A stretch of 64,000 nt of DNA, taken from the NCBI GenBank assembly GCA_947172415.1, contig OX359195.1, positions 7,619,001 through 7,683,000 on the forward strand, written 5' to 3'. The notes under the pieces were generated by a model, which saw only the letters and a program-made list of their open reading frames with translations, was not told the DNA's origin and did no database searches. Origin of the DNA: Chondrosia reniformis. Its lineage: Eukaryota; Porifera; Demospongiae; Chondrillida; Chondrillidae. The translations under genes were made by a program, and so were the position numbers. Below, one piece after another: positions 11,101 to 63,300 of the stretch (position 1 is the first letter of the stretch; the number at the start of each line of letters is the position of its first letter).

Positions 11101-14100
11101 ATGACAGACGTACAGCTCTTAGAATGACGACCTTGCATATTTAAAACTGTTTACCTCGGCTCTTAGAGATATCCTGAAGTGACTGAGAGATCAGATGGAA
11201 CTGAAACCAAGCAAGTGAAGTTCCATAAGGTATGTTCATCCACCCATCCACCCATCCACCCATCCACCCATCCACCCATCCACCCATCCACCCATCCACC
11301 CATCCAGCCACCAATCCATCCACCCATCCACCCATCCACCCACCCATCCACCCATCCATCCATCCATCCAGCCACCAATCCAGCCATCCATCCATCCACC
11401 CATCCACCCATCCATCCACCCATTCACCCATCCATCCACCCATCCATCCACCCATCCACCCATCCATCCATCCACCCATCCACCCACCCATCCACCCATC
11501 CACCCACCCATCCACCCATCCATCCATCCACCCATCCACCCACCCATCCACCCATCCACCCATCCATCCACCCATCCAGCCACCAATCCAGCCACCAATC
11601 CAGCCACCAATCCAGCCACCAATCCATGCATGTTTTGTATTTAGTGTTACTATCACAAGTTGAGTACTGATCAGGCAAAAGATGTTCTCTGTTGTGAGTT
11701 CAATGATGAACCTGATTGGATTCTGTAAGTGTCTATTCTGTTAAAGGTTGAAAACTTGACTGTTAGTAGAATAAAACTGTTCTTATTGCTATGCGATGCT
11801 TTCAATGCTTGTTTCTGTAGAGGTACTGAAGTGAGTGATTGCGGTAACTATGTCATCCTCTACATCTCAAGAGGAGCTGAACCTAAGAACCTGCTGTATT
11901 TCTATGATCTAAGAAACCTTCCAAATAAGGAAATTACTGGTAGGCATATACATACCTGTAGTGTGAAATGCATCTGATTGTCACATGATAATTCTCACAT
12001 CAGAGAGGATTGATGATAAATATTAGTCTTACACGTCAGCAGCATGTAGTTACATATATGTAAATGATGATGATTTCATGATGATAATTGTTCGTTTACA
12101 TGTACAGTTCAAATACACAAAGTGTGTTTACAGAAGCCTTATGTACTAATATATATGTGTGTATTGTATTAAGTGCAGATAGGGCATCAGTTTGTATTGT
12201 AATTAGTGTAACATGGTGTGTGTATTAACTCTGTAATGTAAATTAGCTTAATAAGAAAAGCATGACAATTTTTTATGGGTGATTGTCCTCTAACAAAGTG
12301 TACATGTACGTATGTACATCCTTTTGTGTATGTAGCGATAATGTTGTATTGATAATGTTTTAATTAGGTAAACTTGATTGGACCACAATTGTTAATGAAT
12401 TTGATGCTTCGTATGATGTAAGTATATACGTTCAAAATCTCAAATCTCAACATTTCAGACTATCCTGTGCTTTATATGCTAATTTGTACAGTATATGTGC
12501 CAGTGCATGTATGTATATTCATCACATGACTTATGTGCACATGTTCAGATGGTTTGCAATGAAGGGACCGTCCTCACACTGAAGACAAACTACGGAGCTC
12601 CAAACTACCGTGTGATGAATGTTGATTTGAACAAACCTGAAAGAGTGAGTAATTTTGTTATATTGACATTATCTATATAATATAGATATATAGATATACG
12701 TATACATTATACATGCATATGTACTATATGAACGTATGTAGAATATGTGTTGCAATGGGACAGTCCATATGATAGATATTTAAAATGGCCGCACTCTTTT
12801 ATTACATGCTTGGTCAATTCTATAGGAACACTGGACTGTAGTTATTCCAGAGAGCGAGAAAGATGTTTTAGATTGGGTTGCTTGTGTTAATCAAAATAAA
12901 CTTGTGGTTTGTTATCTCCAAGATGTCAAGGTAAATTTCTTTAGTACAATGTCTCAATGTAGTGGATATACTTAATTGGAACATTATAGTCATGTAATTT
13001 AAAGTATTATTTTAAGTGTAGATGTGTAAGACTGTTTATTTTGCCCATGTTGAGAAAATTTAAGCATCTATACCTAATTTACATACAGCAGATACAATGA
13101 AACTATTTGTGAAATTTGGTAGAGGATTGTGCAAATCTTGAGAATTGGTAGATTAATTAGATTAGTAGCTGTAAAGTCTTAGTATAGACAACCAATCCTT
13201 CAAATTGGCATCTCTGCCAATATTTCTAAATGCACAATTCCTTTCTTTTGTTTTTTTAGAATATTCTAAAGTTATTTGATCTGAATGGTGCATTCGTAAT
13301 GGACATCCCACTTGATGTTGGTTGTGTTGGTGGCTACAGTGGACGAAGGAAGGATACAGAGGTCCTCACTCAGTGTATAGCACCATAGTGTATACACATG
13401 AATATTACAGGCACACTTATGTGACATGTACAGACGTACATACAATACGGAGATAATATACATAAAAGAGCTCGCATTTGAAGGAAATATAAAATAAGTC
13501 ATGTACTATGTACGTATACATAGCTGATGGCTGGAATAATGTGAACCTGTTCCTCTATTTTCCAGATTTTTTACAAGTTTGAGTCCTTTTTGTCTCCCGG
13601 GATCATATTCAGAATGGACCTGACCAAAGAGCCTTACCATCCAGTAGTGGGTAGAATGATGCATTTGTTGTTATACAGAACCTTGTACTTGTATAGTGTA
13701 GTACCGCAAAATGTTGGTAGTGAAATGAAACCAGTGGACAGCAGTGACGGCTACGTAACCGTGTGTGTACTCGGTCTCTTAGGTCTTTAGGGAAATCATT
13801 GTGATAGGATTTGATTCCTCTCAGTTCACAACTGAACAGGTGTTCTATCTGAGCAAGGATGGCACAAAGATACCAATGTTTATTGTGAAGAGGAAGGTGA
13901 GAGATGTAACTTGTGTTTTGGTTGTTATCTACATGTGCTGTGGAATAACTAACTAAAATGGCGGCTAGCCACTGTTTTTAGGTTTTGGATGATGATTGAT
14001 TATTTGCATTTGATTTGAGACTTGTTTTATCAACTGATTAGTCTTATCACATGGTTCACTAACCTTGTCCATCCATGATGTAATGAACTTTGTTTTCATT

Positions 14101-40896: not shown

Positions 40897-43800
40897 ATGG
40901 AGTCAGCCGCCACAATTGTCAAGAGAAATCCTTGGGGTAGCCTGCCCGCTCCCGCCACGCAACCGTGTTCATTCAGCTCGCTGATGGACGAAGACCTAGC
41001 CAGAAAGCTGCAAGTTGAGGAGGGTGGTATTGCCGAGCCCCCCGGTCCCACTGTGGCCCCGGAAGAGCAGACAGTGGTAGATGATCTTCTACTGGCCCAA
41101 ACGTTACAGCACGAGTTTGATAAGGAGAACGACATTTACTTGGCTGCGAAAGAGAAGCACATTAATGGAAATAGCAAAGGTGGGAATGTGTACAATTTGA
41201 AGGTCATTGCTGCTGCTATTTATATGCTTTGTTCTTCAAATATTTATTTATGACTGTTCAGATTGATAAACATGTTGACACAAGCTAGAACCACTCTCTA
41301 AACAGTACAAAATATGTTTGATACGATAATAGATGTGGTATTGCACAATACTTATCATGTACTCGTTGTCTTTCTCCAGTCGGAATAACTTTCCTCAAGT
41401 ACAAGTCTGTTCACCCAACCATAGCAGACGATGAAGAGGAACCAAACCCGTACGACTTGCTAGAGGATGTGAAGGAGAGTAAGTAAACTGTAGTTTATTT
41501 ATTGTATACATCCATAGTAAGTACGTAGAATAGTCTGCAGGTATGTATAGCATATACCTTTCCACTTACTACATATCAGTATCCTATTTTGAGATGCATC
41601 AACCACAAGTATTTTATTTCAGTGCCCTTTCACCTGTAGAACCTCAAAGTGGTGTATCACATGGAGGGACCAAGTCTCGTCGCCACCGCAGATCAAAGAA
41701 CACTGCCGACCAACCCACAAAGCATGACCTGGTAGCCTGTGGCAGAAAAAATGTGCAAAATATTGAACGAGTGAGTACAGCAGACAATGTTACATTCATA
41801 ACATACATCAGAGGTACATGTAATGTGTGCTGTTGGAGTAACAGACTAATATAGTATAGCCGTCTCTACTGTTGGCTGTATATATTATGTGCTCCAGTGC
41901 ACTCTGGTCAGCTCTCTATTTCCTTACTTCCTGTTCCTGTAGCAATTCCCAGTTGGCTTCCAAGCTGGAGATGTGGCTGATGAGAGAAGTTTCTACAGAC
42001 TCTCAAACCCGGTGTACAACTCACTGAAGGCTCATGCAGAGTCTGAAGAGCACAAGTCAAAACGCTTGCATGAAAAAAAGGAACATTCTACTCATGTAAG
42101 TCACATGACACTTGCTTGTAAGTCACATGACACTTATGTGTAAGTCACATGGCACTTGTGTGTAAGTCACATGACACTTGCGTGTAAGTCACATGACACT
42201 TGCGTGTAAGTCACATGACATTTCCATGTAAGTCACATGACACATACAGTACAATATTCAGGATGAAGGATGTGTAGATTTGTGCTCTCTGACTCGTACT
42301 GTGTTGTGTTGTCTGATGTGTAGGACAAGGCTTTGGATGAGAAGACTCGTTTGGTACTCTTCAAGTTGGTCAACAATGGTCTCCTCGAGGAGATCAACGG
42401 AACAATCAGCACTGGGAAGGAGGCGTGTGTGTACCACGCCTTTGGAGGTAAGACTGCAGAGGAGGCAGTGCCAAAAGAGGTTGCACTGAAGGTCTACAAG
42501 ACTACTTTGAATGAGTTCAAGACACGCGACAAGTACATCAAAGATGACCACAGATTTAAAGCAAGGTTCAAGAAGCAGAACCCTCGTAAGGTTATTCACT
42601 TGTGGGCAGAGAAGGAGATGAGGAATTTGAAGAGGTTAGTACTCTTTCAGAGCATGTAATACATCAGGAGTAGATCCCTGTTATATAAAACTGTGGTACC
42701 ACCCTCCAGTATTGTTGTACTGTAGTAAAGTATGTATTATAGCAGTTCAGCACCTTTGTACGTATGCACAGTTGTACATATTTGTTCTCTGGTTCACTGT
42801 TCTACAGACTCTCTGATGGTGGAGTTCCATGTCCAGCTGTTGTGCAACTGAAGAAGCATGTCCTGGTGATGCAGTTCATTGGCAAAGATGGCTGCCCAGC
42901 CCCAAAGCTTAATCAAGTGGAGTTATCAGAACATGAGCTCGGGAATGCATATCGACAAGTTGTTGCAGTAAGTATGTACACACATCAGTATACGTTGCCT
43001 ACTAACTGCTTAGACTCATTCAGTAGTATATAGAGCCGTTTGTGTCTAACTGCTTAGACTCATTCAGTAGTATATAGAGCCGTTTGTGTCTAACTGCTTA
43101 GACTCATTCAGTAGTATATAGAGCCGTTTGTGTCTAACTGCTTAGACTCATTCAGTAGTATATAGAGCCGTTTGTGTCTAACTGCTTAGACTCATTCAGT
43201 AGTATATAGAGCCATTTGTGTCTAACTGCTTAGACTCATTCAGTAGTATATAGAGCCATTTGTGTCTAACTGCTTAGACTCATTCAGTAGTATATAGAGC
43301 CGTTTGTGTCTAACTGCTTAGACTCATTCAGTAGTATATAGAGCCATTTGTGTCTAACTGCTTAGACTCATTCAGTAGTATATAGAGCCGTTTGTGTCTA
43401 ACTGCTTAGACTCATTCAGTAGTATATAGAGCCATTTGTGTCTAACTGCTTAGACTCATTCAGTAGTATATAGAGCCATTTGTGTCTAACTGCTTAGACT
43501 CATTCAGTAGTATATAGAGCCATTTGTGTTTATAGGACATACTTATGTATTCCAAACTAATGAATTCACATGAATGAGAATTGCTTTTAACTTCAATTTT
43601 CATTTCTATGCAATTCTTCATTGACTGAAAAGGTATAGAAACAGATATGTCCCAGTGCTTAAGTAACAGTATATTGATTTGTTATATTAAGCTTTGTATG
43701 CAATACATTCGTACATGTGTGTGTGCATGTTTAATGCAACAGGGAATGAAGAAGATGTTCAAGAGGTGTCGACTGGTCCATTCTGATCTGAGTCCATACA

Positions 43801-44461
43801 ACATCTTGTGGTACAATGGAGAGGCCGTCTTCATTGATGTTGGTCAGGCAGTGGATGCCACACATCCACACTCCATGGACTTCTTGTTAAGGGATTGCAC
43901 AAAAATATCAGATTTCTTTTCCAAGCACTTCTTGCCCGAAGTGGGTTCTCCCCATGAGCTGTTTAACGATATCACAGGTCTGACCATTCAAGCTACATCA
44001 GATCAAGAATTCTTGGTCAAGGTATGCAAATTGGGTGCACATTCTGACATTCACAGATTTCTAGGATGGAAACTTACAGAAATAAGGTTTATGTACATAT
44101 ATGTACGTATGTATAATTAAGGAGTAAGATGTACGTATGTAGAGCTATAGGTATAGATATACGTAGACTTACATAAGTACGTGCAGTAGAGACCAACTAA
44201 TCCAGTTGCTATGGGACTAAAGTCATTGGCAAAGGAGTTAGGAATACTATAAATAAGTTTAGCTTATTTTTTGTTGTTTTGCAGGCTAGGAGTTTCCAAA
44301 AAGATTTTTCAGGAAATGAACACACAAAAACTGAACCTGACAGTTATGGTTTTGACTATTATTTTGAGTTATCAAGAGAGGAGAGTTTGAGTGATGAAGA
44401 CAGTGAAAGCGATAATCTTGTGGACAGTGGTGCTGAGGACAATAGTAATGAAAAACTGTAG
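40897..44461 (+). CDS. RIOK3: RIO-type atypical protein kinase 3
   Basis: Atypical kinase acting in 40S ribosome maturation. Eight exons, 40897-41179, 41380-41478, 41640-41770, 41943-42095, 42324-42634, 42808-42967, 43743-44021, 44285-44461, give 530 residues (human 519). Family blocks: SLMDEDLARKLQVEE near the N-terminus, TKHDLVACGRKN, ISTGKEACVYHAFGG (RIO P-loop), TTLNEFKTRDKYIKDDHRF, WAEKEMRNLKR, catalytic VHSDLSPYNILW (Asp about 394) and metal-binding FIDVGQAVD. The C-terminal acidic tail is partly copied at 48775-48864. Intron 4 carries a 21 bp repeat containing the donor motif; intron 6 carries a 44 bp repeat. Confidence 0.95.
42094..42242. repeat. 21 bp tandem repeat containing the 5' splice-site sequence
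   Basis: About seven copies of GTAAGTCACATGACACTTGC with small changes. The first GTAAGT is the donor of RIOK3 exon 4, so the intron begins with an array of potential donors. Confidence 0.9.
42995..43530. repeat. 44 bp tandem repeat in RIOK3 intron 6
   Basis: About twelve nearly identical copies of a 44 bp unit (core TGTCTAACTGCTTAGACTCA), differing mainly at one C/T base (GAGCCGTTT versus GAGCCATTT). Head to tail, no spacers. Confidence 0.95.
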
Positions 44462-44922
44462 AACAGTAGCTCAGAAGGGGAATAACACCTACATGCATAT
44501 CCTAACTTGTTCACTTTTCATTTTCTCTAATCATTTTGTATCATGCATGTATGTCAGTAATGGGTTAGAAGTAAAATAAATTAATATATTAATATTAAAA
44601 TTGCAGAGGCTAGAGTGCTGGTACCGCTAACGGAACGTATTGCGTTAAAGTACCGGTACCGGTGTCACAGGATATTTTATCTGCCTGGCTACTTTAACAC
44701 AGCTATGTGTACGGAGTTTGTAAGCTGGTGCTTATCGATGTATCGATATATTTATATAAATGTAATATAATTCTTGACAGTGCTTAACCACTTTTGTATA
44801 TAAATTCTATGAATTAAAGATTTTCATGGTTGACGCTAATGTGAGAATAAGGAAAAATGCATACAGAATAGACATATATATACGTATATACATGCAATTG
44901 TCACCCTTGAACTTTAAATGAT

Positions 44923-47750
44923 CTAAGCTATAGTACAACTAGTTCTTTTATATTTTGAAGCTGATTCAGTGGCACCCAAATGAACTATCTGTCCCTTATC
45001 TTGATCTCCAATCTCCACCATCTAATAACATTAACATGATTTAACAAATTTAAACATGCAGGCAGACTGCAAGTGCTTTTAATGATTAATTGTTCTGCTC
45101 AAGAATCTATCAAAGCCACTCACAGATCTAGATAGTTCTTACCTGTGTTACTAAAAATTTAAAAGCTTCATTGATTCCTATATCTTCTTTGGCTGAGGTT
45201 GGGAAATAGGACAGAAAATTATTTTCCTTGCAAAAGTCTTCCATTTGAGATGTATTGAAGGAATCAGTAGCACCAGGTAGGTCACACTGAATGCAATAAG
45301 GAGAGAGGACACAGAGAAGATCACATGACTGTATGCAGCTATAGATAGTTCGGTTCAACACTGGTTGCATGGTGAAGATATAGGCTCTTGTCCAACATAT
45401 AGGGGACTGAAGTTAAACATGACTGGTATTTTCAAGTGGCTAAGGGGAGACTCTGGTTCCCATTAAGTGAATTTTGGTTCCGCCCATTAGCTCATTGTGC
45501 TCCTCAGGAGACATGAGTGGGTGAGGTAAATCCAGAGTCAAATGATGAGACATCTCAACTAAAGATCAGCTTTTGATCTTAAAGTCCCCTATTTGTCATG
45601 ACTTATACCGTATGTACCTTATTTCCGAGAAGAATTGCTGGTATGGTGGATCCATGCATTGAAAGACAGGTGTTATCAAGATGTTTCTTTCGTAGATTTG
45701 CTTCATCAAGTTTAGGGTTACTCAAATCAAAGACCACAATAGCTCCATTGGCAAATTTAAAAAAAGCGGCATTAATATTAAACAATTGCCGCAAACCTAG
45801 AGTGGGAAATATATATTATCAGTAAATTTATCAATAAAATGTAAGTATCTGTAAATTGTTCTGTCTAAATATTTAAAATGTGACAGCTAAAAATTATTAG
45901 AAAATAGATAAATTACGTACTTTATCTTCAAAAATCAATTAAATGTAAACATTCACGTAGATAGAAATGTCACTGTAATTGTACAAACCGTTTAACTCCC
46001 AGATATTTAGTGTCACAATTGTGTTGGCATCCAAGTTTAACTTCTTAACTATCCAACAACAGCCAATCTATCATTAACTGTTAAAGAATATAATAGGTAC
46101 ACACATTAAAGTTTGGTAAGTAGAAGTTATATCAAACTGTAATATTGTCAAATCAAATAAATAAAGTAAATCTAAAGGTAGACGTTTTAATTCATGTTTT
46201 ACAAGGATTCACAGAAGATCAAGATAAAGAAAAAGACAAAGACTCCCAGGATCACTGATGAAGGGTGGAATTCCCAGAAACGGCTGTCTGACCCAGTGGA
46301 GAAGAAGATGAAAGAAGGGAAAAGAAGGAAGAAAAGACTCCTGTATCTTCATCTAAAGCTCTCTTTAGGTTTAGTTCCCCTATAGGCTCTTTTTACAGAA
46401 TAGGCATATAGCATGTAGGAAAATGGTATCTTAGATTTTTTATAGGAAATTGAAACAAATTAAAGGTTGTGAATCAACAAATATTATGTATACGTACTCC
46501 ATATACTGTTGTATCTAAATTCAAAGGATAGAGTAAAACAAGGGTTAGAATTAAAGTAAATACTTAACACTTATTCACAAAATGGTCTGAATTTCTGCAT
46601 ATTTCAATTGTATAATTTATCATGTGTTACTTATCCTCAATTAAATGTTTGCCTATATTCATATGCATGTATACACTTTGGTACTGTTGTGTATAAAGGA
46701 TACAGTAGGCGGAGGATTATTCCTGAAGTTAGCATTGACATATCTGTCTATGATGCAAGTCCTTCCTACAGCTGTATCCCCAATAACAACAATCTGAAAG
46801 GTATATTCTCTCTTTTGAGAAGGATGAGGTATAGCTTGATGAACTCTATTATAAGCTGATGACTTAGGTCTAGGAAGAGCAGAGTGAATCCGTTTCATTT
46901 CTGAGACAATCTCTGCACTGCTCGGACGTGAATCAGCACTATTAGCCAAACACCTTTTGATAAGATCCAAAAACAAGCTCCTTTCTTCATCACTCATTTG
47001 ATCAATCTGACTCTTTCTGCGTTCATACTCTGTTACAGCTACTAATCTGTCTCCATCTTGAACAGTTTGGTAAGAAGGGTCTGGCCATTCGTGGGTCAAT
47101 GTGGTCACAATGCAGTTGCCGTAGGAGAACACATCCAACTTCTCATTGTGGTGAAGAGGCTCTTCAAAAGCTTCTGGAGGCATAAACACTGGAGTTCCCT
47201 TCACAGATGACTGTCGGGTTGACAGATTAATGGCACGGGTCATGCCAAAGTCTGTCAGCTTGGTCTGAAGTGAACTTTCATTCAGCAAAATATTATTTGG
47301 ACTCAAGTCGTGATGGACTAGAGGTGGATCATGATCGTGAAGGTGGCACAGTCCTTTAGCTACTTGAAGAAGGATGTGAACCTTGTCTTGAAGGAGGAAC
47401 ACAGCTTTGCTGTGATTATCCAGATAGTGACGAAGTGAGGTGTCCATCTTCTCCAATAAGAACACAGGCACACGTACACGGCTTTTGGGAGGATAGTAAA
47501 TTCCCAGCAGATTAACAATATTAGGATGTTTCAGATCAAGCCACGTTTGCCATTCCCTTTCGAAATCTTTGACCATTTTGTCTATTTGTGGCTTCGGAAT
47601 ACCAGTAAGAAAGATTTCATGCATTCTCTTCGCTGCATACAACTTTCCTTGCCACTTGACCTCGATAACTTGGCCGAAAGATCCGCGACCGAGTATCTTA
47701 CCAGTTGGGCGAATCTCCTTAGGCTTCAAGTGAAATTCTTTAGTCGCCAT
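44923..47750 (-). CDS. protein kinase fused to a degenerate Rab32-type GTPase domain, copy A
   Basis: Exons complement 46704-47750, 45989-46040, 45618-45796, 45143-45286, 44923-45021 give 506 residues. Residues 15-290 form a TKL-like kinase: glycine loop GRGSFG (21-26), Lys41, HHD catalytic loop (Asp148, VHHDLSPNNIL), DFG (167-169) and MPPE. From about 312 the protein is Rab32-like (YTFQIVVIGDTAVGRT), but the P-loop Lys is Arg330. The switch I/strand segment is shortened and DIAGQE is replaced by WELNG. The NKCD and SAKED base-binding motifs are kept. The C-terminus SCTIA is a CaaX-like prenylation box, unlike the CC tails of the neighbouring Rabs. The intron positions in the Rab part are those of the intact Rab genes. 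The start ATG follows 5 bases after an in-frame-free leader. A pseudo-GTPase regulatory domain is inferred. Exon 2 acceptor is the weakest junction. Confidence 0.85.
46196..46445 (-). repeat. interspersed repeat R1, copy 2, in intron 1 of kinase-Rab A
   Basis: Reverse-complement match to 15529-15750 over most of its length (blocks CCACTGGG, GGAATTCCACCCTTCATCA, AGAGCCTATAGGGGAACTAA, CATTTTCCTACATGCTAT). It is absent from the corresponding intron of copy B, so it inserted after the duplication or was lost from B. Confidence 0.75.
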
Positions 47751-48020
47751 TGCACTACTTTACAGAACGCAATTGTAATGCAAAATAACGCGCAAGGGGA
47801 TTACGTCAGCTCGAGTGGTCTTAGCAATCAACTATATATTTATGCACCAACCTGGTGTCAAACTGAACATGATTACATGTCTGTACTTACTAACACTGAA
47901 TGCAATAAGGAGAGAGGACACAGAGAAGATAACATGACTGTATGCAGCTATGTTCAGCTTGAACTGTCCCCCCCAGGGTGATCATACATGTTGATGTAGT
48001 TAGCTTATTGCTAAGAGCAC

Positions 48021-48559
48021 CTTGTTTCCAAGGAGAACAGCTGGTATTGGGGACCCATCCGTCTGGAAGCACTTGTTATCGAGGTCTTTCTTCCACAGCT
48101 TTACTGCATCAAATGTTGATGTTCTCTGCAAGTCAAACACCACAAAAGCTCCAACGGCTTCCTTGTAATACACTCTAGTCATATTGTCATATCTCTCCTG
48201 GCCTGGAGCAGGAAATAAGAATCATCTACAATCATTCCCTTAAAATAAAATATGTGTAGCTAATAGAATAGAATTGTTATATAATTGAGTAGTAGCTAAA
48301 TGAAATGTTATACAACTAATTAAACTAATATTAGGAGCACAATGTTTGGGACATTAGTTAAACATAAACAGATTACATGATTTACATAATTCAAGTAATT
48401 TGAGGAAATCACAAATGTCATCTAGCATCAGAGTAGTAGGAAAATGGCTGCCAATTGTAGAAGCATATACATATACCAACCTGCTATGTCCCATAACTGT
48501 AGTCTCACTATAGTGCTCGCATCCCAATTTAACACTTTAAGAGCAAAGTCAACACCAAT
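48021..48559 (-). pseudogene. Rab32-like gene remnant (exons 3 and 4 of 6 only)
   Basis: Two exons are preserved, complement 48481-48559 (IGVDFALKVLNWD...WDIAG) and 48021-48202 (GQERYDNMTRVYYKEAV...LLGNK), nearly identical to those of the intact gene at 52656-54543. The exons with the start codon and P-loop are outside the duplicated unit. The last two exons are missing because of a deletion ending at about 47890, where the acceptor TTGCATTCAG is followed by TGTTAG instead of the TGTGAC exon. It cannot encode a GTPase. Confidence 0.9.
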
Positions 48560-48774
48560 CTTGCAGTTGTATTAAGGATTAAATATGCAGCTGTAGTGAT
48601 GTAAATGTGCCATATTAAGCAACTGGTCAAAGCTTTCAGACTTTCAGAGTGGCTTTAAATCTTAAAGTCCCCTATTTTTCAAGATGAAGCAATACATACC
48701 ACCTTGCTAATACTGAGTAGCTAAGTCAGCAGGAGATGTGCCAACAAGGTGAAACTGAAAGGCCAAAATACCTG

Positions 48775-48864
48775 TCAAGAGAAGAGAGTTCGACTGATGA
48801 AGACAGTGAAAGTGATAATCTTGTGGACAGTGATGCTGAGGACAATAGTAATGAAAAACTGTAG
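48775..48864 (+). pseudogene. duplicated tail of RIOK3 last exon
   Basis: Matches 44372-44461 closely, including the acidic codons and the stop, but has no upstream exon. A by-product of the tandem duplication; the RIOK3 gene at 40897-44461 stays intact. Confidence 0.92.
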
Positions 48865-49338
48865 AACAGTAGCTCAGAAGGAGAATAACACCTACATGCA
48901 TATCCTAACTTGTTCACTTTTCATTTTCTCTAATCATTTTGCATGTATGTATGTCAGTAATGGGTTTAAACTTAGAAGTAAAATAAATTAATATATTAAT
49001 ATTAAAATTGCAGTGACTAGAGTGCTGGTACCGGTAACGGAATGTATTGCGTTAAAGTACCGGTACCGGTGTCACAGGATATTTTATCCGCCCAGCTACT
49101 TTAACACAGCTATGTGTACGGAGTTTGTAAGCTGGTGCTTATCGATGTATCATTATACTTATATTATATTTATATAAATGTAATATAATTCTTGACAGTG
49201 CTTAACCACTTTTGTATATAAGTTCTATGAATTAAAGATTTTCATGATTGACACTAATGTGAGAATAAGGAAAAATGCATACAGAATAGACATATACATG
49301 TATATACATGCAATTGTCACCCTTGAACTTTAAATGAT

Positions 49339-51978
49339 CTAAGCTATAGTACAACTAGTTCTTTTATCTACTGAAGATGATTCTGTGGCACCCAAATGAA
49401 CTCCCTGGTTGATGGTATCCTTGTGATAATTCTGTCCCTTCTGTTGATCTTCAATTTCCACCAACTAACAACATTAACATGATTTAACAAATTTAAACAT
49501 GCAGGCGGACTGCAAGTGCTTTTAATGATTAATTGTTCAGCTCAAAGATATAAGAATCTATCAAAGCCACTCACAGATCTAGATAGTTCTTACCTGTGTT
49601 ACTAAAAATTTAAAAGCTTCATTGATTCCTATATCTTCTTTGGCTGAGGTTGGGAAATAGGACAGAAAATTATTTTTCTTGCAAAAGTCTTCCATTTGAG
49701 ATGTATTGAAGGAATCAGTAGCACCTGGACGGTCACACTGAATGCAATAAGGAGAGAGGACACAGAGAGAATCACATGACTATACATGCAGCTATAGATA
49801 CGTTCAGTTCAACACTGGTTGCATTGTGAAGATATAGGCTCTTATCCAACATATAGGGGACTGAAGTTCAACATGACTATGTGTATTTTCAAGTGGCTGG
49901 GGGAGACTCTGGTTCCCATTAAGTGAATTTTGGTTCAGTCCATTAGCTCATTGTGCTCCTCAGGAGACATGAGTGGGTGAGGTAAATCCAGAGTCAAATG
50001 ATGAGACATCTAGCTAAAGATCAGCTTTTGATCTTAAAGTCCCCTATTTTTTCCATGACTTATACGTACCTTATTTCCCAGAAGAATTGCTGGTATGGTG
50101 GATCCATACATCGAAAGACAGGTGTTATCAAGATGTTTCTTTCGTAGTTTTGCTTCATAAAGTTTAGGGTTACTCAAATCAAACACCACAATAGCTCCAT
50201 TGGCAAATTTAAAATAACTGGCATTAGATCTCTGCAAACCTAGAGTGGGAAATATATATTATCAGTAAATTTATCAATAAAATGAAAATGTAAGTATATG
50301 TAAATGGTTCTGTCTAGCTAATTATTTAAAATGTAACAGCTAAAAAATATTAGAAAATAGATAAATTACGTACTTTATCTTTAAAAATCAATTAAATGTA
50401 AACATTCATGTAGATAGAAATGTCACTGTAATTGTACAAACCATTTAACTCCCAGATATTTAGTGTCACAATTGTGTTGGCATCCAAGTTTAACTTCGTT
50501 ATTGCAAAAGAAAGAAGAATCTATCATTAACTGTTAAAGAATATAATAGGTATACACATTAAAGTTTGGTAAGGTATTTTCAATAGAAGATGTAATATTG
50601 TCGAATCAAATAAAGTAAATCTAAAGGTAGACGTTTTAATTCATGTTTTACATAGGAAATTGAAACAAAGGTTGTGAATCAACAAATATTATGTATACGT
50701 ACTCCATATACTGTATACTCTGTACTGTTGTATCTAAATTCAAATGATACAGTAAAACAAGGATTAGAATTAATGTGATTATTTAACACTTATTCACAAA
50801 ATGGTCTGAATTAATTTTCTGCATTTTTCAATTTGTATAATTTATTATGTGTTACTTAATATGCTCAATTAAATATTCATATGCATGTATATATACACTT
50901 TGGTACTGTTGTATATATATATATATATAAAGGATACAGTAGCCATAGGATTACTCCTGAAGTTAGCATTGACATATCTGTCTATGATGCAGGTCCTTCC
51001 TACTGCTGTATCCCCAATAACAACAATCTGAAAGGTATATTCTCTCTTTTGAGAAGGATGAGATATAGCTTGATGAACCCTATTATAAGCTGGCGGCTTA
51101 GGTCTAGGAAGAGTAGAGTGAATCAGTTTCATTTCTGAGACAATCTCTGCACTGCTCGGACGTGAATCAGCACTATTAGCCAAACACCTTTTGATAAGAT
51201 CCAAAAACAATCTCCTTTCTCTATCACTCATTTGATCAATCTGACTCTTTCTGCGTTCATACTCTGTTACAGCTACTAATCTGTCTCCATCTTGAACAGT
51301 TTGGTAAGAAGGGTCTGGCCATTCGTGGGTCAATGTGGTCACAATGCAGTTGCCATAGGAGAACACATCCAACTTCTCATTGTAGTGAAGAGGCTCTTCA
51401 AAAGCTTCTGGAGGCATAAACACTGGAGTTCCCTTCACAGATGACTGTCGGGTTGACAGATTGATGGCACGGGTCATGCCAAAGTCTGTCAGCTTGGTCT
51501 GAAGTGAATTTTCATTCAGCAAAATATTATTTGGACTCAAGTCGTGATGGACTAGAGGTGGATCATGATCGTGAAGGTGGCACAGTCCTTCAGCTACTTG
51601 AAGAAGGATGTGAACCTTGTCTTGAAGGAGGAACACAGCTTTGCTGTGATTATCCAGATAGTGACGAAGTGAGGTGTCCATCTTCTCCAATAAGAACACA
51701 GGCACACTGCTTTTGGGAGGATAGTAAATTCCCAGCAGATTAACAATATTAGGATGTTTCAGATCAAGCCATGTTTGCCATTCCCTTTCGAAATCTTTGA
51801 CCATTTTGTCTATTTGTGGCTTCGGAATACCAGTAAGAAAGATTTCATGCATTCTCTTCGCTGCATACAACTTTCCTTGCCACTTGACCTCGATAACTTC
51901 GCCGAAAGATCCGCGACCGAGTATCTTACCAGTTGGGCGAATCTCCTTAGGCTTCAAGTGAAATTCTTTAGTCGCCAT
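49339..51978 (-). CDS. protein kinase fused to a degenerate Rab32-type GTPase domain, copy B
   Basis: Exons complement 50938-51978, 50442-50493, 50070-50239, 49594-49737, 49339-49464 give 510 residues. The kinase half is about 97% identical to copy A, with all key motifs (GRGSFG, Lys41, HHD, DFG, MPPE) and a two-residue deletion after PPKS. The Rab-like half again has GDTAVGRT (P-loop Lys to Arg), a shortened switch I, WELNG in place of DIAGQ, GNK, CDRPG, SAKED and the same SCTIA C-terminus. Exon 3 has changed more (LQRSNASYFKF versus LRQLFNINAAFFKF). The last exon is 9 codons longer. That both copies stay open over 500 codons while the adjacent Rab copy decayed suggests the fusion is functional. 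Confidence 0.85.
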
Positions 51979-52655
51979 TGCACTACTTTACAGAACGCAA
52001 TTGTAATTAGCTCTGGATTGCTGGTTTTGCAATATATTCCTCCTGCTGCGTATAATCTGGCCGATATAAGGACCATGCCCTCATGAGGCGTACGTATATA
52101 CACATAAAGTGCATTAATACATCCATTATGATGTAAGTGGTGTTAGCACTTAGTGATTTTAGCTCCAATTTATGACAATAATAGAGTAAGGATTCCTTCT
52201 AACTGCGTCGAATTTATCTTTATAGAAAGGTCATCTTTCGACTTTTAGAGCGTCTAACGCTTCGAAAGATGACCCTTTCTAAAGATATATATTTAGGCAC
52301 CAAAACTGAACACATAATTACATGTCTGTACTCACAGCCTTGCCAGGTACTGTACAAGTTTTTCACTCTTTAAAAATGATTTTCCCGCGGCCGTGGCTTA
52401 TCATTTTTGTATCACTCATACCAATAATGAAGTGTTTCCCCCTTACCAATGGCTATGCTACATATAACATACTCTGTAGGTTCGTATACTTTGTTTCTTT
52501 CTTTTTATTAGAATGGTTGAAATATATTAATTGCTGAATTCATTTAGTACAAGCAATTAAATGATTTAACAAAAAGCCTCTAAATAGTTTACATAAAACA
52601 ATTCTGTAGCAAATATTAAAGTTCTAGCAAGTGTTTCTGAGACCTTCAGTGAGCA
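51979..52655. other. spacer between kinase-Rab B and the intact Rab32-like gene, with hairpin repeat
   Basis: Mostly AT-rich. At 52184-52295 is a member of another dispersed repeat (R3): AAGGATTCCTTCTAACTGCG, then CATCTTTCGACTTTTAGAGC, then the inverted copy GCTTCGAAAGATGACC. Related sequence is at 27222-27300, 34323-34520 and 38528-38570. Much of this stretch has no counterpart in unit 1. Confidence 0.6.
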
Positions 52656-54543
52656 TCAGCAACATTTCTTAGTCTGTTTTGGTGGTTGTCTTAAATCAAG
52701 TACTTCTCTATCTCCATTTTCCACTCCTTTTAACGAATCTTCCTTCTTCAATATCTAAAGCAAAATTGAACAACAGCTGGACAGTGTGGCTTATATAATA
52801 AACTTCACATATTAAGTAAGCTATTTTGCAAATACGTACGTATCTAACTCTTACCTGTGCTACTAATGAATTAGCAGCTTCATTGATTCCTATATCTTCT
52901 TTGGCTGAGGTTGGGAAATAGGACAGAAAATTATTTTCCTTGCAAAAGTCTTCCATTTGAGATGTATTGAAGGAATCAGTAGCACCAGGTAGGTCACACT
53001 GAATGCAATAAGGAGAGAGGACACAAAGAGGATCACATGACTGTATGCAGCTACGTTCAGCTTGAACTGTCCCCCCCCAAGGTGATCATACATGTTGATG
53101 TAGTTAGCTTATTGCTAAGAGCACCTTGTTTCCGAGGAGAACAGCTGGTATTGGGGACCCATCCGTCTGGAAGCACTTGTTATCGAGGTCTTTCTTCCAC
53201 AGCTTTACTGCATCAAATGTTGATGTTCTCTGCAAGTCAAACACCACAAAAGCTCCAACGGCTTCCTTGTAATACACTCTAGTCATATTGCCATATCTCT
53301 CCTGGCCTGGAGCAGGAAATAAGAATCATCTACAATCATTCCTTTAAAATAAAATATGTGTAGCTAATAGAATAGAATAGTTATATAATTGAGTAGTAGC
53401 TAAATGAAATGTTATACAACTAATTAAACTAATATTAGGAGCACAATGTTTGGGACATTTGTTATACATAAACAGATTACAAGATTTACATAATTCAAGT
53501 AATTTGAGGAAATCACAAATCTAGCATCACAGAGTAGTAGGAAAATGGCTGCCAATTGTACAAAGCATATACATATACCAACCTGCTATGTCCCATAACT
53601 GTAGTCTCACTATAGTGCTCGCATCCCAATTTAACACTTTAAGAGCAAAGTCAACACCAATCTTGCAGTTGTATTAAGGATTAAATATGCTCAACTATAT
53701 ATCAATATTGCAATTGGAAAGGCTGTGGTGATGTAAATGTGCCATATAAGCATAAGCAACTAACTAACTATATAAGCAACTGGTCAAAGCTTTCAGACTG
53801 GCTTTAAATCTTAAAGTCCCCTATTTTTCAAGATGAAGCAATATATATCACCTCGCTAATACTAAGTAGCTGAGTCAGCAGGAGATGTGATCTGTTTATA
53901 TATGGTAGAACTAACTAGCTGTGACAAGGTGAAACTGAAAGGCCAAAATACCACCTCCAACAGACATTTCCCTTATTTGCATATTATGAATATTCTTAGC
54001 AAAATAACTTGCTGGTTTAATCCAGCAGTGAACTATAACTGCCCAACACCAGTAAAGAATCACTGTTAATTAAATGAAAGACTAGTTAATCTACGAGGGT
54101 TGTGGCGTTGTAGAAACATCGCCGACTGCAACAAGTGTAGGATACAGTGGTTTTGTAGTGAGCTGAAAAGCACTGGTGGACGTATCTCTTTATGATGGAT
54201 GTCTTGCCCGCGCCCTGGTCTCCAATCACGAGCACCTTATATAGCCTCTCTTTTGGAGCAATTGATGACTGTAAAAATAAAGATGACTCACTCAGTATCC
54301 GCAAAAAGCTATCATTAGTATGAATAAATTGCTATACAATCAATTAGGCAATCGAAAATGTTTGTATCGACATAGTTCAATTAGTTTTGTCGAGCTAAAC
54401 AAGCAATTAAGTTTGAGAATTACAGGATGCACAATTATTTCCTAATTTTGATAATGTAACATATTGAATAAGGCTAAACTTTCCAGGTAATATATATGTG
54501 AATAATTGTAGTTCTGGAGAAGGGTGGTTCGAAAACTTACCAT
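52656..54543 (-). CDS. Rab32/Rab38-like small GTPase (intact)
   Basis: Six exons on the minus strand: 54541-54543 (the ATG alone), 54146-54268, 53583-53661, 53125-53306, 52855-52998, 52656-52754, giving 209 residues. P-loop GDQGAGKTS (17-25), FALKVLNWD and [25 protein letters not shown] are diagnostic of Rab32/38, which direct traffic to lysosome-related organelles. GNK-CDLPG and SAKED complete the nucleotide pocket, and KKCC ends the protein for double geranylgeranylation. The start codon is the last codon of exon 1 (AAAATG|GTAAGT). The 3' exons lie inside duplication unit 2. Head to head with NMD3. Confidence 0.92.
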
Positions 54544-57854: not shown

Positions 57855-60048
57855 ATGGTGAATTATTCGCATAGCCAAGTAACCGTTAGTCATATTTTGC
57901 CAGTGCCCTTCGCTCTTATAGCAGCGCATGATTCCTAATGTAGTGCCTACGCCTGTGTACATATGCGAAAATATATACGTACATACGTACATTAGAGTTT
58001 CATGATACAAAAATGTATACAAATTAGTGGATTCGAATTCGATTCTTTTCTATACATATATACTTAAAAATTGTATCCAGCTCGCTTGTGTGATCAATTC
58101 CTGATATATTACCAATTATATAATCAATGCCTTTGCCATCATGTGTGCATGTATATATGCAGTCATCTGCAAAAGAGAAGCTCTTCAAGATTCTTGTCAT
58201 CGGTGACAAAGCTACTGGCAAGACTTCAATTATTAAGCGATACGTTCATCAACGTTTTTCTGAGCTCTATAAAACTACTGTATCCTGCCTATATACAATA
58301 TATATACAGAATATTTTATGTGAATGTCTGTGTGTGCCTGTATATGATTATATGGCAAGTCCATACGTAGGTGTATGTAAACATTAAACTGATCAACATG
58401 ACCCTATAAACAACGTATGAAAAATCTAAGATACCATTTTCCTACATGCTATATGCCTATTCTGTAAAAGAGCCTATAGGGGAACTAAACCTGAAGAGAT
58501 CTTTTGGATGAGGAAACAGGAGTCTTTTCTTCCTTCATGTATGCATGGTTGAATGTTAATTTTTATTATTAAGCTAATCCTTAACGGTACATATGCTTTA
58601 AAGGTTGGAGTTGACTTTGCACTCAAAGTATTGAAGTGGGATGTTACAACTATTGTGAGACTGCAGCTATGGGACATAGCAGGTTTGTATAAAACTTTCA
58701 CTATTTGTTCAGCATCTGTTTCCTCTTTATAGCCTCACAATTATAATCTTGTGATTTCCTTAAATGACTCTTAGTTATTCATAGTTACAAGGTCTTACGT
58801 CTGATATATGTAAGACAACATATTTTAAAGGTAGCTATAGGACAAATATAATGTGTGTGCCAAACACACTTTATATAACTACAAGCTTTGTCCACACATA
58901 TATAATTTATATATAAAATTTGATCTACATATCTACGTAGCTGGTCACCTATATATATATATAGGAAATATCAAAAGTAAATGACTATGCATCAAAGATG
59001 CAATAGGAAACAGCACATGGCCTATTATCTATATATGTGTAATAATAAGAATTATATAGCAGTTTGATCATTTATGTACATTTGTATATATATTACAATA
59101 ATGGATCTTTCTCTCTAGCTATCATACGTATATCATGCATATTTGAGTTATGCTGTTTTAGATTATTCATATATTATTACAATATGAGGAACAATTTGTG
59201 TATATTTATCAATATACTAGGACCATGCAAAGTGATTGGTATATAAATGGCCCTTTGTGCATCTTGGTATATTATAACTATTAAATTTGTAATAAGCCAT
59301 CAGGTTTACTACAGGTACATATGCCATATAGGCCAGGAGAGATATGACAATATGACTAGAGTGTATTTCAAGGAAGCCGTTGGAGCTTTTGTGGTGTTTG
59401 ACTTGCAGAGAACATCAACATTTGATGCAGTAAAGCTGTGGAAGAAAGACCTCGATAACAAGTGCTTCCAGACGGATGGGTCCCCAATACCAGCTGTTCT
59501 CCTTGGAAACAAGGTGCTCTTAGCAATAAGCTAACTACATCAACATGTATGATCACCTTGGGGGGGACAGTTCAAGCTGAACGTAGCTGCATACAGTCAT
59601 GTGATCCTCTCTGTGTCCTCTCTCCTTATTACATTCAGTGTGACCTACCTGGTGCTACTGATTCCTTCAATACATCTCAAATGGAAGACTTTTGCAAGGA
59701 AAATAATTTTCTATCCTATTTCCCAACCTCAGCCAAAGAAGATATAGGAATCAATGAAGCTGCTAATTCATTAGTAGCACAGGTATATAAGTATATATAA
59801 TGCAAAGTAGCTTGACATGTATTATATAGTATCCATAAAGGCAGTTATGTATATATAACTCATATTTATATGATTTAGTAGCTACTCAATTAATAAGTGA
59901 CTTAATGCCATGTCATATCAATATGTTATCTGGTTATCTTTAGATATTGCAATTTGAGGGATCAAACTCATTGAAGACAACAGATCTAGACAAAGACTTA
60001 ATTGACATGACACTGCAACCAAAATCTAAAGGATGCTGCAAGCGTTAG
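57855..60048 (+). CDS. second Rab32/Rab38-like small GTPase (intact)
   Basis: Exons 57855-57857 (ATG alone), 58163-58279, 58604-58682, 59332-59513, 59639-59782 and 59944-60048 give 209 residues. P-loop [55 protein letters not shown] and SAKED are present. The end is KGCCKR, a less common CCxx geranylgeranylation signal. Exon order, phases and the ATG-only first exon equal those of the gene at 52656-54543; exons 4 and 5 are nearly identical in sequence. The N-terminal and C-terminal exons have diverged. Intron 2 holds repeat R1 copy 3. Confidence 0.92.
58415..58540 (+). repeat. interspersed repeat R1, copy 3 (truncated)
   Basis: Matches the left part of 15529-15750 (CCATTTTCCTACATGCTAT, AAAGAGCCTATAGGGGAACT, CAGGAGTCTTTTCTTCC), then stops. 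Confidence 0.75.
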
Positions 60049-60129: not shown

Positions 60130-63100
60130 CATTATTTAAATGTAATTAATTTGGAATACCAGTATATTAATATACATTTGGTGCTCTAACCCTGTCAAAT
60201 GGAAAGATATGAAGCTCAAACCTGCTGTCAGTATTCACAGACATGTATGAAACATTTCCAACGACAATTTGAAATTTTCATAAATCTTTACATTTGCCCT
60301 ATCTCTCACTATACATTAATTTGGTATACCAGTATATAAATGTACATTTGGTGCTCTAATTCTGTCAAATGGAAAGATATGAAGCTCAAACTTGGTGTCA
60401 GCATTCACAGACATGTATGAAACATTTCCAAGAAGAATTTGAAACTTTCATAAATCTTGACATTTGCACTATCTCTCACTATACATTAATTTGGTATTCC
60501 AGTCTTTTAATGTACATTTGGTGCTCTAACTCTGTCAAATGGAAAGATATGAAGCTCAAACTTGGTGTCAGCATTCACAGACATGTAAGAAACATTTCCA
60601 ATGAGAATTTGAAGTTTTTATAAATATTTACATTTGCCCTATCTCTCACTATACATTAATTTAGTATACCAGTATATAAATGTACATTTGGTGCTCTAAT
60701 TCTGTCAAATGGAAAGATATGAAGCTCAAACTTGGTGTCAGCATTCACAGACATGTATGAAACATTTCCAAGAAGAATTTGAAATTTTCATAAATCTTTA
60801 TATTTGCCCTATCTCTCACCATATATTAATTTTGTATTCCAGTCTATTAATGTACATTTGGTGCTCTAACTCTGTCAAATGGAAAGATATGAAGCTCAAA
60901 CTTGGTGTCAGCATTCACAGACATGTATGAAACATTTCCAATGAGAATTTGAAATTTTCATAAATCTTTACATTTGCCCTATCTCTCACCATACATTAAA
61001 TTGGTATTCCAGTCAATTAATGTACATTTGGTGCTCTAACTCTGTCAAATGGAAAGATATGAAGCTCAAACTTGGTGTCAGCATTCACAGACATGTATGA
61101 AACATTTCCAATGAGAATTTGAAATTTTCATAAATTTTAACATTTGCTCTATCTCTCACTATACATTAATTTAGTATACCAGTATATAAATGTACATTTG
61201 GTGCTCTAACTCTGTCAATAGGAAAGATATGAAGCTCAAACTTGGTGTCAGCATTCACAGACATGTATGAAACATTTCCAAGAAGAATTTGAAATTTTCA
61301 TAAATCTTTACATTTGCCCTATCTCTCACTACGTATACATTAATTTGGTATACCAGTATATAAATGTACATTTGGTGCTCTAACTCTGTCAATTGGAAAG
61401 ATATGAAGCTCAAACTTGGTGTCATCATTCACAGACATGTATGAAACATTTCCAATGAGAATTTGAAATCTTTACATTTGCCCTATCTCTCACCATACAT
61501 TAATTTGGTATACGAGTACGTATATAAATGCACATTTGGTGCTCTAACTCTGTCAAATGGAAAGATATGAAGCTCAAACTTGGTGTCAGCATTCACAGAC
61601 ATGTATGAAACATTTCCAAGAAGAATTTGAAATTTTCATAAATCTTTACATTTGCCCTATCTCTCACTATACATTAATTTGGTATTCCAGTCTTTTAATG
61701 TACATTTGGTGCTCTAACTCTGTCAAGTGGAAAGATATGAAGCTCAAACTTGGTGTCATCATTCACAGACATGTATGAAACATTTCCAATGAGAATTTGA
61801 AATCTTTACATTTGCCCTATCTCTCACCATACATTAATTTGGTATACGAGTACGTATATAAATGCACATTTGGTGCTCTAACTCTGTCAAATGGAAAGAT
61901 ATGAAGCTCAAACTTGGTGTCAGCATTCACAGACATGTATGAAACATTTCCAAGAAGAATTTGAAATTTTCATAAATCTTTACATTTGCCCTATCTCTCA
62001 CTATACATTAATTTGGTATTCCAGTCTTTTAATGTACATTTGGTGCTCTAACTCTGTCAAGTGGAAAGATATGAAGCTCAAACTTGGTGTCAGCATTCAC
62101 AGACATGTATGAAACATTTCCAATGAGAATTTGAAATCTTTACATTTGCCCTATCTCTCACCATACATTAATTTGGTATACGAGTACGTATATAAATGCA
62201 CATTTGGTGCTCTAACTCTGTCAAATGGAAAGATATGAAGCTCAAACTTGGTGTCAGCATTCACAGACATGTATGAAACATTTCCAAGAAGAATTTGAAA
62301 TTTTCATAAATCTTTACATTTGCCCTATCTCTCACTATACATTAATTTGGTATTCCAGTCTTTTAATGTACATTTGGTGCTCTAACTCTGTCAAGTGGAA
62401 AGATATGAAGCTCAAACTTGGTGTCAGCATTCACAGACATGTATGAAACATTTCCAATGAGAATTTGAAATCTTTACATTTGCCCTATCTCTCACCATAC
62501 ATTAATTTGGTATACGAGTACGTATATAAATGCACATTTGGTGCTCTAACTCTGTCAAATGGAAAGATATGAAGCTCAAACTTGGTGTCAGCATTCACAG
62601 ACATGTATGAAACATTTCCAAGAAGAATTTGAAATTTTCATAAATCTTTACATTTGCCCTATCTCTCACTATACATTAATTTGGTATTCCAGTCTTTTAA
62701 TGTACATTTGGTGCTCTAACTCTGTCAAGTGGAAAGATATGAAGCTCAAACTTGGTGTCATCATTCACAGACATGTATGAAACATTTCCAATGAGAATTT
62801 GAAATCTTTACATTTGCCCTATCTCTCACCATACATTAATTTGGTATACGAGTACGTATATAAATGCACATTTGGTGCTCTAACTCTGTCAAATGGAAAG
62901 ATATGAAGCTCAAACTTGGTGTCAGCATTCACAGACATGTATGAAACATTTCCAAGAAGAATTTGAAATTTTCATAAATCTTTACATTTGCCCTATCTCT
63001 CACTATACATTAATTTGGTATTCCAGTCTTTTAATGTACATTTGGTGCTCTAACTCTGTCAAGTGGAAAGATATGAAGCTCAAACTTGGTGTCAGCATTC

Positions 63101-63300
63101 ACAGACATGTATGAAACATTTCCAATGAGAATTTGAAATTTTCATAAATCTTTACATTTGCCCTATCTCTCACCATACATTAACGTAAATGTACATTTAG
63201 TGCTGTAACTCTGTCAAATCCGTAAATACGAAGCTTAAACTTGGTATCTACATTCACACACATGTATGACACATTTCCAAACAGTTTTAGAAATTTTGAT
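60130..63300. repeat. satellite array, 170 bp monomers with 334 bp dimeric higher-order repeat
   Basis: About 18-19 head-to-tail monomers. The marker TACATTTGGTGCTCTAA recurs at 60173, 60343, 60513, 60683, 60853, 61023 and 61193, exactly every 170 bp. From about 61500 the period becomes 334 bp: five copies start their GGAAAGATATG box at 61557, 61891, 62225, 62559 and 62893. They combine a 170 bp and a 164 bp monomer, the latter lacking TTTTCATAAA and carrying GAGTACGTATATAAATGCAC. The ~73-codon ORFs seen in each copy are by-products. The last monomers (63180-63300) are degenerate. Confidence 0.95.

Follow-up and report, generated by a model that had tools for sequence, protein, structure and literature searches.

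A 64,000-nucleotide stretch of the Chondrosia reniformis genome (the window, G000:C7:7619001-7683000, in an assembly of 117.4 Mb and 15 contigs) contains two tandem minus-strand genes, A and B, each of which joins a protein kinase domain to a Rab32-type small GTPase domain. At the DNA level A and B are a genuine chimeric gene pair. In both copies a single open frame (46659-47759 in A, 50869-51987 in B) runs uninterrupted from the kinase start into the Rab P-loop, confirming the original prediction with respect to the tandem arrangement, the location of both genes and the absence of an intron at the junction. Exon 1, which holds the kinase and the first Rab exon in one frame, spans 46704-47750 in A and 50938-51978 in B. 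The spliced B protein matches the Pfam models Pkinase (5.4e-39, profile positions 4-259 of 263) and Ras (1.4e-19, positions 2-159 of 162). These matches, the PDB and whole-fusion protein searches, the counts of differences and indels between A and B and the stop codon expectation were obtained with a first gene model, in which exon 2 has 52 nucleotides (nt), and the exon DNA identities and the codon-model test of the Rab part with a revised model, in which it has 79 nt. On balance, we favour the view that the locus encodes a kinase specific to this lineage and equipped with a Rab-like module that does not switch, present as two tandem copies of one chimeric gene.

The kinase is a complete, TKL-like domain, as had been proposed, in which the Gly loop, the Lys, the catalytic Asp and the DFG motif could all be located; HHD replaces HRD, and the same is true for five of the six aligned paralogues. 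The best 60 of 3027 PDB matches to spliced B include EGFR, CTR1, TNNI3K, TAK1, WNK, B-Raf and BRI1; LRRK2 is not among them. The kinase belongs to a large family, with at least 118 genomic matches (117 of 328 candidates were scored). Among the scored matches, alignment to the end of the 347-residue query is confined to A and B (to residues 346 and 347), and no other goes beyond residue 327. The best 14 non-self matches (L003-L016) have 60-67% identity in the kinase, and the six paralogues that were aligned (L003, L005 and L007 among them) share residues with the fusion for about 25 positions past the Pfam kinase end (residue 281 of B). Beyond these positions the paralogues continue into coiled-coil-like C-termini, whereas A and B enter the Rab homology, at about residue 311 in A and 309 in B. 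Among the 120 related kinases listed, four carry NHL and one ankyrin (P0002 and P0024 were rechecked), and a Ras domain is absent from all of them.

The Rab part, judged from its exon structure and top sequence match, is of the Rab32 lineage by descent; its closest PDB matches are Rab32 (1.8e-33, first B model). The gene structure was modelled with the help of three intact genes of the Rab32 type (D, E and F). In these genes the start codon ends a short first exon and is followed by a phase 0 intron, and the subsequent exons correspond to those of A and B: the donor of Rab exon 1 is GTATCC, exon 2 has 79 nt and exon 4 has 144 nt in all five genes, and exon 3 has 182 nt in D, E and F versus 179 (A) and 170 (B), the differences being whole codons. 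A partial loss of switch I, which had also been claimed, is probably not real. With the acceptor ...AACAGTTAATGATAG, exon 2 of A and B has 79 nt like that of D, E and F, and all switch I positions are present, with altered residues (A TIGCCWIVKKLNLD, B TILLSFAITKLNLD, D TIGVDFALKVLNWD). Another acceptor, AAG/TTAAAC (the slash marks the exon boundary), lies 27 nt further in; it is a poor site that yields the 52-nt exon, and it was rejected because the 79-nt exon behind ATAG fits D, E and F. The apparent deletion is thus probably an artefact of a gene model built on this inner acceptor. At the position of the FALK stretch, which the accessible part of PMC4728774 describes as common to Rab7L1, Rab32LO and Rab32/38, the sequence is FALK in D and E, FSEK in F, FAIT in B and WIVK in A. 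Switch I is strongly diverged between the copies, the first nine codons of exon 2 encoding IGCCWIVKK in A and ILLSFAITK in B, unlike Rab exons 1, 3 and 4, which are 92-97% alike in DNA.

Rab GTPases are characterized by the signatures GxxxxGK[ST], DxxGQ, NKxD and SAK and by a C-terminal double-cysteine prenylation signal. As had been predicted, the first two are lost in both copies: the P-loop reads GDTAVGRT, with the Lys replaced by Arg, and DxxGQ has become WELNGL, that is ExxGL, with Asp replaced by Glu and Gln by Leu. The base-binding motifs are present in both copies, as NKCD and TSAK, and their retention had been counted among the features of the domain. They lie in exon 4, which in A and B is 92-96% identical in DNA to that of D and E (A-D 96%, B-D 93%), while exons 1-3 of A and B are only 48-65% identical to those of D and E, and the corresponding exon of F, at a distance of 1.36 Mb, shares 67-72% identity with the other four. 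A similar patchwork exists between D and E (52855-53306 and 59332-59782, on opposite strands), whose identity amounts to 98-99% in exons 3 and 4, 83% in exon 2 and 71% in exon 1, and this is probably the result of gene conversion between inverted neighbours. Likewise, exon 4 of A and B has probably been renewed by conversion from the neighbouring Rab32 genes, so that NKCD and TSAK need not reflect selection on the fusion, and the explanation that they were retained because they are needed was rejected. Thus, the notion of a kinase with a built-in pseudo-Rab stands with regard to the intact kinase motifs, the P-loop Arg and ExxGL, but is not well supported by a switch I deletion or by the retention of NKCD and SAK.

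The C-terminus is less clear. The double cysteine is absent from A and B, which end in SCTIA, if a doubtful exon 5 is used, or in VTQVRTI, while D ends in KKCC. The putative exon 5, with its CAAX-like CTIA end, has a purine-rich acceptor, is not followed by AATAAA or ATTAAA within 463 (A) and 439 (B) bases, and differs between the copies at 6 of 66 positions (9.1%), compared with 8 of 154 (5.2%) in intron 4. If exon 4 is read through, a stop codon follows shortly after it (...VTQVRTI), and ATTAAA is found just below this stop in intron 4 (at 45078 in A and 49521 in B). The frame may therefore end just past exon 4 instead of in the putative exon 5.

The architecture was not found elsewhere in the protein and open-access literature searches; in the latter, a kinase-Rab fusion is described by none of the listed titles or abstract openings. 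A search with the junction region in 5.8 billion proteins gave two candidates, of which one, P0001, was a match, and among the 120 listed of 862 matches to the whole fusion the P-loop was present only in P0001; it should be noted that such searches detect relatives sharing short words and that intron-split fusions in unannotated genomes would escape them. P0001 is 99% identical to B and has the same kinase-Rab junction; it belongs to a cluster of 5 members and lies on a contig of 3,115,576 bases, the window's own contig having 8,459,200 bases, and it is probably from another assembly. Within their scope, the results of these searches agree with the original prediction that no family with a kinase followed by a Rab domain has been described. 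Rab domains in longer chains do occur among the Rab32-like proteins of 284-905 amino acids (Rab-44-like, EF-hand calcium-binding domain-containing protein 4B, ras and EF-hand domain-containing), but, unlike the fusion, none of the 120 listed of 514 has a kinase family among its Pfam entries. Compared with the Rab32/Rab38 GTPases themselves, which provide the top PDB matches and the exon structure, A and B differ in the P-loop Lys, DxxGQ and FALK, in the loss of the Rab gene's own start codon and in the N-terminal kinase.

LRRK2 and other Roco proteins also unite a kinase with a Ras-like domain in a single polypeptide, the Roc-COR module preceding the kinase. In the fusion the kinase comes before the Ras-like domain, which is of the Rab32 type, and COR is absent from the Pfam matches of spliced B. 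The Roc model does match the Rab part of B (7.8e-11), but it matches the plain Rab protein D as well (2.9e-29). As far as the sequence comparisons go, kinship of the fusion kinase with LRRK2 is unsupported, and the parallel to LRRK2 that had been drawn is a loose one. According to the accessible part of PMC10551901, Rab32 and Rab38 bind the ARM domain of LRRK2 in a manner that requires GTP; the same part describes them as devoid of the LRRK2 phosphorylation site and reports no evidence that they are substrates. A Rab-like part without GTP may be unable to bind in this way.

How strongly the fusion has been maintained was addressed with two codon models, in which omega denotes the ratio of nonsynonymous to synonymous rates. 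For Rab exons 1-3 the model used 128 alignment columns from both copies and from D, E and F; for the kinase it used 302 columns from A, B, L003, L005 and L007, five of the eight aligned sequences. Before the A/B split constraint was clear on the kinase (stem omega 0.30, background 0.22; omega = 1 rejected with 2dlnL, twice the log-likelihood difference, of 13.5 and p 0.0002) and weak on the Rab part (stem 0.48, p 0.05 versus 1; background 0.21), both stem values covering pre-fusion time too. The kinase exon differs between A and B by 1.9%, a lower value than in introns 2-4 (3.7-5.2%) or the 3' flank (6.0%), divergence in intron 1 and the 5' flank being higher still. The coding exons of A and B are free of stop codons, and all three exonic indels, of which one borders on the doubtful exon 5, are multiples of three, in comparison with 8 of 29 non-coding indels.

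Several observations weigh against the reading that we favour. Since the duplication Rab exons 1-3 have been near-neutral (omega 0.96 at the A/B tips), the kinase tips have omega values of 0.99-1.01 that differ from the background (p 0.005), with 5 synonymous and 12 nonsynonymous changes between A and B, and amino-acid constraint after the split is undetectable in either part, the changes being few. Rab exon 1 (5.4%) and exon 3 (7.6%) have diverged as much as introns 2-4, and the open frames are weak evidence because only 2.1 stop codons would be expected (P 0.12). No fusion orthologue elsewhere was found by the junction search of 5.8 billion proteins. Furthermore, a stop codon ends the open frame of exon 1 only 14 (A) and 22 (B) codons beyond the donor, and intron 1 contains ATTAAA at 46186 in A and ATTAAA at 50635 and AATAAA at 50841 in B, so that a truncated product is possible.

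The near-neutral evolution would be explained if the pair were a dying or functionless product of a chance fusion, its frames not yet lost, which owes its persistence to local duplication and to gene conversion, as seen in exon 4, in a neighbourhood where the Rab32 remnant C testifies to decay. We regard this alternative as unlikely in view of the kinase stem omega (on a branch that also includes pre-fusion time), the two open frames and the low divergence of the kinase exon; it may overlap with the favoured reading if the genes are transcribed. The early stops and poly(A)-like signals, together with the recent near-neutrality of Rab exons 1-3, would fit a kinase-only product with a short Rab-derived tail, made through retention of intron 1 or polyadenylation within it, the later Rab exons being relics. 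Splice sites and whole-codon exon sizes have been kept in A and B, exons 2-4 are stop-free, exonic indels are in frame, and short poly(A)-like signals are expected by chance in A+T-rich introns, so that this explanation seems rather unlikely.

Independently of all other readings, A and B could be two haplotypes of one fusion gene set side by side by the assembler, because in the block the RIOK1-like 3' end and part of Rab32 recur in the order that a false join would produce. This is improbable, given that P0001 is closer to B than A is (A is 96% identical to B), that divergence between A and B is 3.7-6.0% across introns 2-4 and the 3' flank and greater in intron 1 and the 5' flank, and that they are separated by 29 non-coding indels. 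Finally, the intact NKCD and TSAK and the switch I Thr, which is in place, would be compatible with a Rab-like domain that still binds nucleotide or is the substrate of its own kinase, i.e. a self-contained LRRK2-like switch. The altered P-loop and ExxGL, the probable conversion of exon 4, the absence of LRRK2 from the best 60 of 3027 PDB matches and the missing phosphosite in Rab32/38 (according to the accessible part of PMC10551901) make this very improbable.

As the sequence shows, a member of the kinase family, its kinase frames unbroken, was joined in frame, about 25 residues past its kinase domain, to the first large coding exon of a Rab32-type gene; the start-codon exon and first intron of the Rab gene are bypassed in the fusion. 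In the favoured reading, a single messenger RNA would encode both domains. The kinase is probably active, as its catalytic motifs are kept, and the Rab-like domain is probably unable to cycle between GTP and GDP because of the P-loop Arg and ExxGL. The latter would then be a fixed C-terminal adaptor, holding the kinase close to partners of the Rab32 type or competing for these, and occupying the place of the coiled-coil-like, NHL or ankyrin C-termini of related kinases. Provided that the fused protein is made, this role is proposed tentatively, with somewhat less confidence than doubt. A further step, in which the non-cycling domain occupies Rab32 effectors or membranes and brings constitutive kinase activity to Rab32-marked compartments, is speculative and would hold with low probability; the effector-facing segment, switch I, is the strongly diverged part between A and B.

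The gene models and their neighbourhood are summarized in the table. The neighbouring genes are presumably RIOK1 (RIOK1-like) and NMD3, which, like the Rab32 genes, are in keeping with an animal genome. Probably, a unit consisting of the RIOK1 end, the fusion and a Rab32 gene was duplicated in tandem and then deleted in part; exons of remnant C other than exons 2 and 3 were not found.

Table. Features of the kinase-Rab locus and its surroundings (window positions).
Feature	Position	Strand	Basis or remark
A exon 1, kinase part and linker, residues 1-306, ATG at 47750	46833..47750	-	homologous part of B matches Pkinase 4-259/263
A exon 1, linker end and Rab part, donor GTATCC	46704..46832	-	Rab homology from about residue 311, P-loop GDTAVGRT at 324
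A exon 2, 79 nt, acceptor ATAG, switch I and WELNG	45989..46067	-	size as exon 2 of D, E, F
A exon 3, 179 nt, ends LLGNK	45618..45796	-	gene model
A exon 4, 144 nt, CDLPG...TSAK	45143..45286	-	96% DNA identity to exon 4 of D
A putative exon 5, ...KRTSCTIA stop, doubtful	44923..44988	-	weak acceptor, no poly(A) signal below, divergence greater than in intron 4
B exon 1, kinase part and linker, residues 1-304	51067..51978	-	open frame, Pfam, gene model
B exon 1, linker end and Rab part, donor GTATCC	50938..51066	-	P-loop at residue 322
B exon 2, 79 nt	50442..50520	-	gene model
B exon 3, 170 nt	50070..50239	-	gene model
B exon 4, 144 nt	49594..49737	-	gene model, exon identities
B putative exon 5, doubtful	49339..49431	-	as A exon 5
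Left copy of duplicated block, RIOK1-like 3' end and gene A	44372..47768		block comparison
Right copy of duplicated block, remnant of RIOK1-like 3' end and gene B	48775..51996		block comparison
Rab32 remnant C, exons 2 and 3, between A and B	47893..48740	-	to D: 99% over 300 nt, 100% over 128 nt
Intact Rab32-type gene D, KKCC C-terminus	52656..54543	-	lone start codon in first coding exon, five exons after; Ras 2.9e-42
Intact Rab32-type gene E, GCCKR C-terminus	57855..60048	+	exon structure as D
Intact Rab32-type gene F (L036)	about 1.36 Mb away, same contig		gene-model guide

Intron 1 of A carries a 239-nt insertion (46203-46441) that is missing from B and has at least 39 more near-complete copies in the genome that are 100% identical (40 of 1317 candidates scored); it is a short mobile element that has spread very recently, and a fragment of it, recognized by eye and outside the scored matches, lies in an intron of E near 58430-58550. 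Part of intron 3 of B (49886-50056) is a dispersed repeat with genomic copies of 82-88% identity, some of them in inverted pairs. Directly downstream of E, at 60145-63183, a 170-bp unit is repeated in tandem about 18 times, with a higher-order period of 334 bp, and a 44-bp unit is repeated 12 times with 98% matches at 43002-43529, apparently in an intron of the gene that we take to be RIOK1-like. A CATCCACC-type repeat at 11237-11626 is open in several reading frames, on both strands.

Kinases and Rab proteins are usually coupled by the binding of separate proteins, LRRK2 with Rab29/32/38 being the known case. The kinase-Rab32 fusion described here, as far as can be judged from sequence, is real but apparently local, and its interest is moderate pending a transcript. 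It illustrates how a large kinase family whose members differ in their C-termini can take up an exon of a small GTPase adjoining the donor genes, and, if expressed, the chimera would offer a natural test of the contribution of a Rab surface to a kinase in the absence of nucleotide switching.

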